DNA of 64,000 bases, from the NCBI GenBank assembly GCA_029547205.1, contig JAKPPT010000132.1, positions 1-64,000 of the forward strand, given 5' to 3'. A model generated the notes under the pieces. That model was not told where the DNA came from and ran no database searches. It saw nothing but the letters and a program-made list of their open reading frames with translations. The position numbers were made by a program, and so were the translations under genes. Numbering within the stretch: position 1 is the stretch's first letter; each line of letters starts with the position of its first letter. Positions 14,480 to 18,900 of the stretch are shown here, one piece after another. Origin of the DNA: Spirochaetota bacterium (GTDB taxonomy: Bacteria > Spirochaetota > Spirochaetia > Treponematales > UBA12059).

Positions 14480-14519
14480 AAAGGGCTGTCCGAAACTGGT
14501 TCATGGACAGCCTTTTTTT
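14480..14519. terminator. Bidirectional terminator between the dehydrogenase and TetR genes
   Basis: GGCTGTCC (14484-14491) pairs with GGACAGCC (14505-14512), flanked by A-rich and T7 tails, so it works in both directions. Confidence 0.88.
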
Positions 14520-14533
14520 ATATACTGTAGTAA

Positions 14534-15394
14534 TTATTTCTTTTTTGCAGGTGCTGGCTTCTTAGCTGGTTTTGTAGTTTTTGCTGCTGGTTTTGCAGGT
14601 TTCTTAGCTGATGTTTTTGAAGCAGCTTTTGCCTTTGTAGCAGTTTTAAGCGTTGGTTTTGCAGTTTTTGCCGTAGCCTTTTTTGCTGAAGGTTTTACAG
14701 TTTTTTCAACTTCCACTTCATTTGCTTTACCGTACGGTTTTGCCTGTAGTGGTGTGTGCTGAGCTGATGGTGCATCACTCTTTGCAATAAGAGTTCTAAA
14801 GTTTTTCCATAGTTTTTGAGCCTCTTTTGCTGGATTAAACGAGTTCCAGTTTTTCATCCATTCGTTAATTACGCTTTGCTCAAAACCGCTGTATAAAAGT
14901 ACAGCAAAATCCGGATCAACAGATGCAAGCAGTTGGCCCTTTGTCTTTGCTTCTTTTATGGCAGAAGTTATTAATTTTGTTTCTTCAGCGCGAATCGATG
15001 CAGTTTTTTTCTTAAGTTCAGGATAATCAGCAAATAATGGCTCCGGGAAACCAATAAATGCAGAGAATTCCCTGTCAGCTGCAAGGGTTTCCATTTTGCT
15101 TAAAAAATATTCTTCAAGCAATGCTAAACCTGTGTTCTTTGATGCTTTTGCCTGATTTATCAGATAGGAAATATACATGGTAGTAACCTGACAAAGAGCA
15201 TCAAAAAGCCCATCCACACCATCAAAATGTCTGAATATTGCAGGCTCAGTAACCTCAGCAAGTTTGGCAATATTTTTTAATGTAGCACCTCGTGGACCCA
15301 ACACCCTGACAACTTCTCCAGTTGCCGCCAGTAAATTTGTTTTTGCCCTTGTATGTGGCCAGGACTCGCCTAAAATAAGTGTATTCTTGTTCAT
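14534..15394 (-). CDS. TetR/AcrR regulator with lysine/alanine-rich histone-like tail
   Basis: Residues ~20-80 form a TetR DNA-binding domain (TLKNIAKLAEVTEPAIFRHF is the helix-turn-helix). Residues ~85-205 are an all-helical ligand/dimer domain like other fatty-acid-type TetR proteins. Residues ~233-286 are different: almost only K, A, P and T in AKK/PAK/TAK units, as in eukaryotic histone H1 or bacterial H1-like proteins. Such a tail should bind DNA non-specifically. It faces the etf operon across a shared terminator, so acyl-CoA-responsive control of that operon is likely but unproven. Leaderless promoter. Confidence 0.88.
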   Translation of the reverse strand: MNKNTLILGESWPHTRAKTNLLAATGEVVRVLGPRGATLKNIAKLAEVTEPAIFRHFDGVDGLFDALCQVTTMYISYLINQAKASKNTGLALLEEYFLSKMETLAADREFSAFIGFPEPLFADYPELKKKTASIRAEETKLITSAIKEAKTKGQLLASVDPDFAVLLYSGFEQSVINEWMKNWNSFNPAKEAQKLWKNFRTLIAKSDAPSAQHTPLQAKPYGKANEVEVEKTVKPSAKKATAKTAKPTLKTATKAKAASKTSAKKPAKPAAKTTKPAKKPAPAKKK

Positions 15395-15400
15395 AATGAT

Positions 15401-15429
15401 AATATAACACTAATTTTTCTTTATGTAAA
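15401..15429 (-). promoter_or_regulatory. Leaderless promoter of the TetR gene
   Basis: TTTACA (15424-15429), 17 bases, TATATT (15401-15406), then six bases to the ATG at 15394. Confidence 0.6.
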
Positions 15430-15447: not shown

Positions 15448-18400
15448 TTACCAGGTAACAGTGTTCCCATCTTTTTTATATTGGGTTTTTATTTCCGGAA
15501 CTCCTATCCAATTAATAAAAATACTATAAGTATTTTTAAACTCATACTGCAAAGTTTGTGTGTTATAAAATGGAGCACTGGTTAATTCAAAAGTTAAATT
15601 CCAATCATGCATGTAATGTATAAGCTTTAAATTTAGTGACTTTAGCTTAAACAGTGATGTTTTTCGTATTTCCGGATTATCAAATCTAAATCCATTAAAA
15701 ATATCAATAAAAAAATTAACAGGCGTTGATAAAGATGCTAATTCTTCTGGTAAAGAAAACACATTCGCATAGTATCGCCATAAGCTCTGATTTCTTGATG
15801 TAAATGAAAAAGAAATATCTGCAAACTCATAAATTTTAAAGGTTATACTGCCGGTAATACCTGCACTTGCTTCATTAAAACGAATAAAGTTTTGAACAGC
15901 ATCAAGTGCTACCTGTGTTTCAAAACTAATCCTATTTTTCCAAACAGGTACAGGCTTCCAATTAAGTTTATATGACATCGAAGCTGAATACAATGAAAAT
16001 GACTCAGCCCCATCAACCCAACCCTGACCTAATACAAAAAAAGAAGCTGGAGATTTTTTTGCATGTATTTGCATTGATAAAGTTTCCCATTGTAAAGATG
16101 CCTGCAAAGACTTAAGTTCTGAAATTTCGATATCATAAACACTCTGTAAAGATAGTGATGGATATTTTTCATATTTTAACTGTAAAGTTGCACTAAAAGG
16201 ATCCCAAACAAACGGATCTGACTCAGTTTTCTGATAATATTTTGTTTGGCCGGAAAAATTTCCAAAAAACCAGGAAAGCTGGAGATTAAACATATATGAT
16301 GGTAATAGTGGTGGCAAGTTCCCAGAAATTTTTAGAGATTCTATATATGTGTCCAGCTTCACACCAAGTACAGCAGCGAGAGAATTTCCTTTAACACCAG
16401 TTTTTGTCCAATCAAAAGTATATGTTTCATATAAGGGTACACCAGCTGAAATAGTCTTAAATTTATATTCATATAACAAAGTATCATAATTCCAGCTAAA
16501 CTGTATTGGTGAAAACAATTCATTATTGATAAAAGGGTTAATTACAATTCCCAGTTTTCCTGTTATTGTATCATATCTATACTGAGCATCCTGTCGCTGC
16601 CACGCCTCAAGCATTACCGGTGTCACATATAGTGGATCGTTAATGTAAGATGGACGCACCTGAAATTTGGCAGACCCAGCAAGAGTAGAATTGATGGTAA
16701 ACAACGAATTAAAAAATTTAAAATTTGGCTGAATATTAGCTGAAATTCCATATGAAATTAATTCGTACAATTTTTGGAAATCTACATCCTGTGGATTTTT
16801 CCATGCATTTGTATTAAATCTTTGTGACCAGTTTATTGAAGGAATAAACTGATAATTCATACTTACTGTAAATATATCGCTTTGATTTGTTTTTAATTCA
16901 GGGGTGTAAAGCTTAGGTAACATAAACAAAGGTGTATCGAGAGGTGATTGTGTTGTACCATCCTGTACCGTACTATCATTCCACGGAGATACAATACCAG
17001 GTATTTCTTTTGCCTGTTGAGGTTTATTTTTACTTACAGGAAGTGGAAACTGAAAAAGATTACCACTGAGTGAAATACTTCCTTCAATAATTTTAAATGT
17101 ATCAGGCACAAAAAACTCTGATGTTGGAGCATACAAAAAGAGATAGTATAAATCAGATTCACTTGGAGCTTGTTTTGTCTTGAGTATCCAGGACAGTGAT
17201 GATGAAATAGTACTAATAGATATAGTTTTAATAAATGGCTCAAAAAATGGGAGCGGTATTGAACCTGAAAAACTAACTGTACTCTGGAGACTTGATTTTT
17301 TTTCAGTACTTACCTGTTGGTTTTTCTCTTGTTCCTTCATGAATTGCAGCCAGTCCATATACTCTGAGCGCTGTAAAAAATCTCGAGAAACGTAAGGGTC
17401 AGAAGCAAAATCGAACGCATAAGAGCTTGTAAACGCCCCAGCAGAAATGCCCCCACTTGCAGTAAACAAAAAACGAAGAGGAAGCTCCTGTCCAAAATAA
17501 TATGCTGTATTCCAGGTACTCGTATAATCATTTTGAGGAACAAATGGTGAATAGGTTTTTGTGCCTATCGGGAATATACTTCTTGTTAAGCCCAGTCCTA
17601 AAAAAAATTTAAAATTTTTAATAGGACCAAATACCGGTAATACTGCATCAACCCCTACAAATAATCCTAAATTCACATAATAATCAGCTAACACCTTTAC
17701 TATATTTTCTTCTTTTTTTTCTTTTTTAGTTTTTTGCGTTCGTAAAAAAACACCTTCCACTTTTCTATCATACCCGGTGCCACCTTCGGTAAGCTTAAAA
17801 AGACTAATACTCTGATCTTTAGGTGCACGCTCCCCGAGAATGTAGGTTGTGGTTTGCACAAAGCGACCTTCCCTATCCTTATAACCAAACACGGGATGAA
17901 ACACAATTTCTTCACCGGGATAGTAAAAGAAAGGGAGATACAATACAGGAATTTCTCCAACATAGAGCATTGCGTTAAAAACTGCCCATTCATTACTACC
18001 CAGAATCCAGAGCTTTGATGCACGAAGGGAGTAATGTTTATCGTCAGTATCGCACGAGCTTATGACTGCATTTTTAAAAACGAGTACTGTATCACTTTTT
18101 TTTATGATATCTTCAGCCTGAAAGATAAGTTTTGTTTGAGTTTCACCACCTTCCCTGCGGTTTTCTCCATATCTAAATGACCCCTGCCAGGTATCAAGAT
18201 CGATATCAATTGCTTCACCTAAAAATATTTCCGTTGTACTGCCATTCTTTTTTTCATACCGAATATTTCCGCGTGCAGATAGAAGCTGCTTTGATTTATT
18301 GTAAACAAGCTCATCAGCATGAATTGTATGAACTTCCCCGGTTTTTGTATCTTTAATTGTTATAACAACATTACCTGAAAACCGTATAATTACATGTGGT

Positions 18401-18900
18401 TGCGGCTCGTCAAGCGTAAAGTATTCTGTTTTTTGTGCGTTTTCTATGGTAATGATCCTTGTTACCTCAGTTTCACTTTTTTGAGGCTCACTTACCTTAT
18501 AGTATTCATATAGTCTATTACGCAATTCATCATCACTTCCCGTTGCAGGGAGTCCCAGCAAAGTGCACCATTCAACAAGCGCTTCATGATTGCTTGTTGC
18601 AATATCAAGGGCAACGGTTTCAAGAAATAGATCTTGCTCTGATGGCATATCAGTTTGTTCATTGTTTCCAGCTTGAGGAGCAGAATCTTTGTTTTGCTCT
18701 GAGTTCTCATTAGAAGACGCATCTGGAACCTGTTTGGGTGATGGAGGCACATGTTCTATACGATGGTTATCTTTCGAATTTGTAACATGATTATTGCTAT
18801 GATACAATTGATGAGCTTTTAAATCTGAATGTGCAAATGCAGAGAGGCAGCTTGCAATGCCTGTGTATAAAACTATAACAGCGTAAATAAGACGTTTCAT
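15448..18900 (-). CDS. LptD-like outer-membrane assembly protein
   Basis: 1150 residues with a signal peptide (MKRLIYAVIVLYTGIASCLSA). After a low-complexity, charged linker, residues ~170-300 look like the OstA/LptA-type beta-jellyroll domain (GNVVITIKDTKTGEVHTIHADEL; SARGNIRYEKK), followed by the LptD transition NAMLYVGEIPVLYLPFFYYPGE and a long C-terminal part of alternating aromatic strands, as in a large beta-barrel. Spirochaetes keep LptD homologues even when they lack typical LPS, so the lipid cargo is uncertain. The four LptD cysteines are not evident. uvrA lies upstream on the same strand, but an own leaderless promoter is present. Confidence 0.85.
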   Translation of the reverse strand: MKRLIYAVIVLYTGIASCLSAFAHSDLKAHQLYHSNNHVTNSKDNHRIEHVPPSPKQVPDASSNENSEQNKDSAPQAGNNEQTDMPSEQDLFLETVALDIATSNHEALVEWCTLLGLPATGSDDELRNRLYEYYKVSEPQKSETEVTRIITIENAQKTEYFTLDEPQPHVIIRFSGNVVITIKDTKTGEVHTIHADELVYNKSKQLLSARGNIRYEKKNGSTTEIFLGEAIDIDLDTWQGSFRYGENRREGGETQTKLIFQAEDIIKKSDTVLVFKNAVISSCDTDDKHYSLRASKLWILGSNEWAVFNAMLYVGEIPVLYLPFFYYPGEEIVFHPVFGYKDREGRFVQTTTYILGERAPKDQSISLFKLTEGGTGYDRKVEGVFLRTQKTKKEKKEENIVKVLADYYVNLGLFVGVDAVLPVFGPIKNFKFFLGLGLTRSIFPIGTKTYSPFVPQNDYTSTWNTAYYFGQELPLRFLFTASGGISAGAFTSSYAFDFASDPYVSRDFLQRSEYMDWLQFMKEQEKNQQVSTEKKSSLQSTVSFSGSIPLPFFEPFIKTISISTISSSLSWILKTKQAPSESDLYYLFLYAPTSEFFVPDTFKIIEGSISLSGNLFQFPLPVSKNKPQQAKEIPGIVSPWNDSTVQDGTTQSPLDTPLFMLPKLYTPELKTNQSDIFTVSMNYQFIPSINWSQRFNTNAWKNPQDVDFQKLYELISYGISANIQPNFKFFNSLFTINSTLAGSAKFQVRPSYINDPLYVTPVMLEAWQRQDAQYRYDTITGKLGIVINPFINNELFSPIQFSWNYDTLLYEYKFKTISAGVPLYETYTFDWTKTGVKGNSLAAVLGVKLDTYIESLKISGNLPPLLPSYMFNLQLSWFFGNFSGQTKYYQKTESDPFVWDPFSATLQLKYEKYPSLSLQSVYDIEISELKSLQASLQWETLSMQIHAKKSPASFFVLGQGWVDGAESFSLYSASMSYKLNWKPVPVWKNRISFETQVALDAVQNFIRFNEASAGITGSITFKIYEFADISFSFTSRNQSLWRYYANVFSLPEELASLSTPVNFFIDIFNGFRFDNPEIRKTSLFKLKSLNLKLIHYMHDWNLTFELTSAPFYNTQTLQYEFKNTYSIFINWIGVPEIKTQYKKDGNTVTW

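Follow-up and report, generated by a model that had tools for sequence, protein, structure and literature searches.

A TetR-type regulator with a histone-H1-like, lysine-rich tail in two families of Spirochaetota

A predicted TetR-type regulator of a Spirochaetota bacterium ends in a histone-H1-like C-terminal tail rich in lysine, alanine and proline. The type of tail is known, its host protein is unusual, and the tail is kept in two spirochaete families. The gene lies in a stretch of 64,000 nucleotides (hereafter the window; positions 1 to 64,000 of contig JAKPPT010000132.1, GenBank assembly GCA_029547205.1). The tail is probably a genuine addition and, judging by analogy, one that helps to keep the regulator on DNA. 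The reading that we favour, with some reserve, is a one-component TetR repressor whose lineage-specific disordered Lys/Ala/Pro polycation tail would raise non-specific DNA affinity and residence time.

Protein and gene

The arrangement proposed in a preliminary description of the window, in which a normal TetR fold leads into an H1-like tail, agrees with the Pfam match, the AlphaFold2 fold and the predicted-disordered polycation tail. Pfam places TetR_N (PF00440) at residues 22–67 with 28.3 bits (cut-off 24); at an E-value of 0.01 the only other match was TetR_C_2, below its cut-off, and no AlgP or phasin N-terminal domain was found in the window protein. The AlphaFold2 model, built on an alignment of the window protein and 14 orthologues (mean pLDDT 79.2, pTM 0.69), has ten helices across residues 16–203. 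Its pLDDT block means are 83–98 in the core and about 40–60 in the tail, where residues 221–266 are nearly all below 50. The all-helical core reaches Z scores of up to 17.9 against TetR structures, and nearly all of the solved structures listed as matches are TetR-type regulators (one entry is titled superantigen PfiT). As modelled, the window protein is a confident TetR fold with an unstructured tail.

After a TetR core of about residues 16–206, the low-complexity tail starts near residue 209 and runs for about 78 residues, with 22 K, 18 A, 10 P, 10 T, 3 E and no D. Residues 233–286, previously described as nearly all Lys, Ala, Pro and Thr, comprise 19 K, 15 A, 8 T, 7 P, 3 S, 1 V and 1 L, so that these four residues make up 49/54. 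The best 40-residue stretch of the tail is 93% K/A/P/T, and the next highest value among the other retained open reading frames of the window (at least 120 aa, overlaps removed) is 57%. C-terminal, K/A/P-rich, D/E-poor and predicted to be disordered, the tail has the hallmarks of lysine-repeat tails of the AlgP/PhaF/H1-like kind.

Table 1 Features of the TetR gene and its flanks in the window
Feature	Positions	Strand	Basis
TetR-family regulator gene, 286 aa	14534..15394	-	ATG start, TAA stop; orthologue alignment agrees with start
WPxxxAK N-terminal arm codons (residues 12-18), directly before helix 1	15341..15361	-	Orthologue alignment
Helix-turn-helix helices 2 and 3 (residues 39-56), near-invariant within the group	15227..15280	-	Alignment and AlphaFold2 model
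TetR core, residues 1-208	14771..15394	-	Homology search, Pfam, predicted fold
Basic tail, predicted-disordered, residues 209-286	14537..14770	-	Composition and AlphaFold2 model
Densest part of tail, last 54 residues, 91% K/A/P/T	14537..14698	-	Composition
Tail-coding tandem repeat, period 21, 2.4 copies, 82% match, score 68	14565..14619	-	Tandem-repeat program
Predicted promoter TTTACA-N17-TATATT, ends 6 nt 5' of ATG	15401..15429	-	Scan; similar layout in some orthologues
Two-way terminator-like hairpin between convergent acyl-CoA dehydrogenase and TetR genes	14483..14512		Direct reading

The end of the gene looks natural, with the TAA stop followed by a terminator-like hairpin (stem GGCTGTCC/GGACAGCC, loop of 13 nt, an A-run and a T-run at its flanks). 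The hairpin is missing from the automatic scan because its loop exceeds the limit of 8 nt. A frameshift, sequencing or gene-calling artefact is ruled out by the tailed orthologues, by tail GC3 that mostly tracks the core and by this hairpin after the stop. At the other end, the pattern TT[C/T]ACA-N17-TAnnnT, ending 4–8 nt before the ATG, occurs in 8/26 members of the orthologue group (shuffled mean 0.005) and a looser form in 13/26 (0.09), with both patterns picked after inspecting the sequences and the shuffles preserving base composition only. The scan that gave the window gene's own site listed three promoter-like sites against a shuffled mean of 3.0. The shared layout close to the ATG supports the start codon and suggests a leaderless mRNA, predicted across two families.

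Orthologues and their tails

Among 96 genomes (the window's own and its relatives), 34 had matches at an E-value of 0.001. In the tree, 26 rows fall on one side of a supported branch (100/99), namely 25 of the matched genomes and L042, which was found by pattern scan, is cut by a contig end, and was labelled as having no tail and left out of the 25. Five rows (L026–L029 and L052) served as outgroups, L030 was left out, and duplicate loci on one contig were merged. Searching back with a distant member retrieved these 25 genomes again, with one copy each, plus G023, which has two weaker matches, the better of them outside the group on the tree. At an E-value of 1e-10 the group was present in 16/23 sampled genomes of one family (f1) and 9/26 of another (f4), and no member was found at that threshold in the sampled genomes of f3 and f5. 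Across 394 genomes of the class, nine passed 1e-12; eight belong to the group and the ninth, G425, lies outside it on the tree. A pattern scan of one genome per species over 84,980 species confirmed 15 places, of which 13 are labelled Spirochaetes, Spirochaetota, Spirochaetae, Spirochaetales or Spirochaetaceae and two only 'bacterium'; the scan can miss relatives because it is built on six short peptide words. By sequence comparison, the proteins make up a single-copy TetR group whose members here come from two related families of Spirochaetota. WPxxxAK is present in 25/26 members (L031 has WSFSRAK), with W12, A17 and K18 invariant and P13 nearly so among 15 aligned proteins. The recognition-helix region reads TEPAIFRHF in 24/26 and TEPAVFRHF in L010 and L039.

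Checking orthologues for the tail, as the preliminary description had proposed, gave 16 basic tails among the 25 complete members, measured past the residue aligned with window residue 203: nine long (71–118 aa) and seven short (18–24 aa). The tail is not due to chance, because orthologues bear the same kind. Most tails are K/A/P-rich; in L045 R is as abundant as K, and L034 has little A. The remaining nine (L014, L015, L019, L020, L021, L024, L039, L043 and L044) have no basic tail, three of them ending in a few basic residues, and no out-of-frame tail was seen downstream of these nine (three frames, about 300 nt, by eye). Hence the tail is dispensable for the basic function. In f1, all 12 members of one clade (100/98) are tailed and the other four are not. 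In f4, L042 groups with the four long-tailed members (93/86), and complete members are either long-tailed or tail-less, with no short tails seen. The label 'none' changes three times on the tree, once possibly because of L042, and the long label six times; gains and losses cannot be told apart on this tree. Tail length follows the tree weakly, as few changes being reached in 22/500 shuffles for long and 46/500 for short tails, and on this sequence comparison it appears to have changed several times.

Other TetR proteins provided a control. By a fixed rule, under which the last 20 residues carry a net charge of at least +4 and are 70% K/R/A/P/S/T, a tail was scored in 15/25 orthologues against 4/55 control TetRs (Fisher p 1e-6, with sequences that are not independent), in line with the earlier view that such a tail is unusual on a one-component regulator. 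L037, which has a visible short tail, fails this rule. The controls, 51 fetched and four from the window's own genome, came from the best-scoring matches listed for eight long-tailed genomes and are not a random sample; L075, L076 and L092 were dropped as their frames leave the fetched stretch. By a looser measure, six controls have a basic stretch of 20–32 aa. In the window's own genome the tail is on one of five TetRs. A genome-wide habit of adding such tails was rejected, given that a search with the tail matched only this place in the genome (E up to 10, nine candidates scored). The same search over the 96 genomes gave only weak matches besides the window (nine genomes at an E-value of 0.1, best other 0.014). 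These tail searches are weak evidence because known orthologue tails were missed too.

A second TetR group was seen with R/A/P/S-rich C-terminal extensions in f4 genomes (L079, L085, L096 and L111), two of which contain RGRP, which we take to be an AT-hook-like motif. The gene downstream is presumably lipoyl-synthase-like. The counterpart in the window's genome (L048:1462-2085) has no such extension.

The preliminary description would have yielded to two findings taken together, orthologues that all lack the tail and signs of a recent repeat-driven extension of the frame. The former does not hold, with 16/25 tailed; the latter holds in part, as several long tails contain 15-bp or other tandem repeats and the window a 21-bp one. 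Repeat scores in tail DNA are 136 in L036, 88 in L045, 68 in the window and 65 in L018, with weaker repeats in L031, L040, L016 and L010. The repeat program reported none in the tail of L032, and did not list the window repeat when run on the tail DNA alone. GC3 of the tail and core is 0.92 and 0.86 in L018 and 0.18 and 0.30 in the window; across L016, L018, L040 and L045 tail GC3 is 0.82–0.92, and L036 is an exception (0.37 in the tail, 0.65 in the core). Since tail GC3 mostly follows the core, it is the amino acids that are conserved and not one DNA repeat. Long tails have a net charge of +17 to +28, 4–15% hydrophobic residues and 1–8 acidic residues each. Uncorrected pN/pS of the tail was below 1 in each of four sister pairs, at 0.49, 0.77 (a tail alignment with 34 gaps), 0.59 and 0.18, against 0.25, 0.52, 0.31 and 0.32 in the core. 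The tail exceeds the core in three of four pairs, which argues that its sequence is less constrained there while its composition is kept. In f1, it seems that a short basic tail came first and that such repeats extended it, as opposed to creating it by accident.

Gene neighbourhoods and candidate operators

In the window, the TetR gene is convergent with a thiolase–EtfB–EtfA–acyl-CoA dehydrogenase cluster, and an LptD-like gene on the same strand lies 53 nt upstream. This neighbour (15448-18900, minus strand, 1150 aa) scores 16.9 bits with the NCBIfam LptD model (cut-off 944) and has no Pfam match.

Eight of the 16 f1 members (L004, L010, L034–L038 and L041) have a transporter ATPase gene upstream of the TetR gene. 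In seven longer f1 stretches picked for this linkage (L145–L151, from G003, G004, G005, G012, G018, G021 and G022), the order PBP-LivH-LivM-LivG-LivF-TetR, a branched-chain-amino-acid-type ABC transporter, was found in 7/7. Gaps of about 110–225 nt occur in these stretches, and by eye at least L146, L149 and L150 have terminator-like hairpins in them, so co-transcription is doubtful there. L033 has a binding-protein gene alone upstream. The window's genome has a similar transporter cluster elsewhere (L152, 40–54% identity), with no TetR match within the fetched stretch; the five TetR genes of the genome are on other contigs. In f4, a beta-lactamase-like gene is adjacent in 6/10 loci (L016, L018, L019, L040, L043 and L044) and a type III glutamine synthetase gene is nearby in 4/10 (L040, L043, L044 and L045), where some of the ten stretches are short and Pfam was run on L040 only. 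As neighbours vary by lineage, they show no common regulon.

Gibbs sampling for palindromes in 25 upstream regions returned A/T-rich consensus words and no convincing site. The scores were 180.8 against 148–154 and 195.6 against 149–164 for plain shuffles, which ignore dinucleotides and had three restarts against five for the real data. No inverted repeat is common to the regions upstream of the thiolase and TetR genes in the window, and by eye the transporter promoters have nothing in common with the regions upstream of the TetR genes. The palindrome GAATAT-G-ATATTC, about 80–90 nt upstream of the TetR start in L035 and L041, two close relatives only, is a candidate operator.

Possible roles of the tail and comparison with known systems

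Under the favoured reading, a tail was added to a conserved ligand-binding and helix-turn-helix core, dimeric by analogy with the family, and its length was altered repeatedly. Each dimer would then offer two tails, each with a charge of about +19, that bind the DNA backbone irrespective of its sequence. With them the repressor would stay on the nucleoid, search faster through sliding or hopping and come off the operator more slowly, with the ligand pocket still governing specific binding. The tail may also spread silencing.

A rather unlikely alternative, and the one to be taken most seriously, is that replication slippage lengthened a short, basic C terminus, itself useful or neutral, into a tolerated long form that adds little. 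The tandem repeats in L036, L045, L018 and the window and the weaker ones in four further tails fit such growth, as do the six changes of the long label and a span of 18 to 118 aa with 9/25 members bare. Drift would not, however, guarantee that acidic residues stay as rare as they are, and the composition, high in K/A/P and low in D/E, is similar whether the locus has 38% or 67% GC, also in L032, for which no tandem repeat was listed. The tail may also have turned a local repressor into a nucleoid-bound one, serving as an adjustable non-specific tether, its length tuned by repeat expansion, that acts at sites far from its own gene. We regard this as doubtful; a clue comes from the tailed f1 members, where the tail is long in 3/4 not seen beside the ABC-transporter ATPase gene and in 2/8 beside it (Fisher p 0.22, not significant).

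It is improbable that the tail is a metabolic sensor, in which enzymatic or non-enzymatic lysine acetylation lowers DNA binding and couples the repressor to acetyl-CoA or acetyl phosphate. The window gene does sit beside thiolase, EtfB/A and acyl-CoA dehydrogenase genes, and in excerpts of published work acetylation weakens DNA binding by HupS about twofold (PMC11229371) and lysine acetylation abolishes that of RutR, a TetR-related protein (PMC10891134). However, the TetR and acyl-CoA dehydrogenase genes are convergent with a hairpin in between, and no beta-oxidation gene cluster was found beside the orthologues. Very improbable is binding mainly to another polyanion, polyphosphate granules or RNA: AlgP, with its K/P/A repeat tail, is located on polyphosphate granules (PMC9239181, in excerpt), but DNA is the nearest polyanion for a host protein predicted to be a sequence-specific DNA-binding repressor.

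Work on how disordered tails affect target search and residence has dealt chiefly with eukaryotic factors and histones. Should the favoured reading be right, the group would offer a set of natural variants of one repressor, in which the tail ranges from 0 to about 118 residues while the core stays related and the recognition helix nearly unchanged. How a polycation tail alters the way in which a bacterial transcription factor searches for its target, its residence time and its specificity could then be measured directly.

In its core, the window protein is closest in structure to KstR2 of Mycobacterium (Z 17.9, 2.6 A over 195 residues), which has a CoA ligand, and FadR of Bacillus (Z 17.4, 3.5 A over 186 residues), at 13–16% identity. 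SlmA, the nucleoid-occlusion TetR, shares the fold at Z 17.0 and has a similar recognition-helix region. FadR, KstR2 and SlmA are not known to carry such a tail. Membership of FadR (NCBIfam NF053878, 17.3 bits, cut-off 200) and of SlmA (NF007015, 19.5 bits, cut-off 120) was rejected. KstR2, FadR, CprB, SlmA and many other TetRs lie less than 1 Z unit apart, and the fold therefore identifies no ligand. The FadR structure binds stearoyl-CoA according to its entry title, and acyl-CoA-binding look-alikes of this kind, along with the adjacent acyl-CoA genes, suggest acyl-CoA as a candidate ligand.

Among the titles and abstract openings listed in searches of the open-access literature, none describes a TetR with such a tail. 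The tail itself resembles those of AlgP (AlgR3) and PhaF of Pseudomonas in its Lys/Ala/Pro repeats, predicted disorder and histone-H1-like composition (PhaF: PMC3574117, in excerpt), although these proteins carry a helical domain or a phasin at the N terminus, whereas the window protein is by prediction a ligand-controlled helix-turn-helix repressor. KPAA peptides of AlgP bind DNA, and granule spacing requires the AlgP tail (excerpts of PMC9239181). As here, a lysine-rich tail on a DNA-binding protein is found in actinobacterial TopA, HupS/HupB, HrdB and Ku, but these are not TetR regulators and belong to Actinobacteria, not Spirochaetota. The lysine repeats of TopA slow its dissociation, and TopA without them leaves DNA more readily (PMC7398561, in excerpt). 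By analogy with AlgP, PhaF, HupS and actinobacterial TopA, the spirochaete tail would bind DNA non-specifically and lengthen the residence of the repressor on it.
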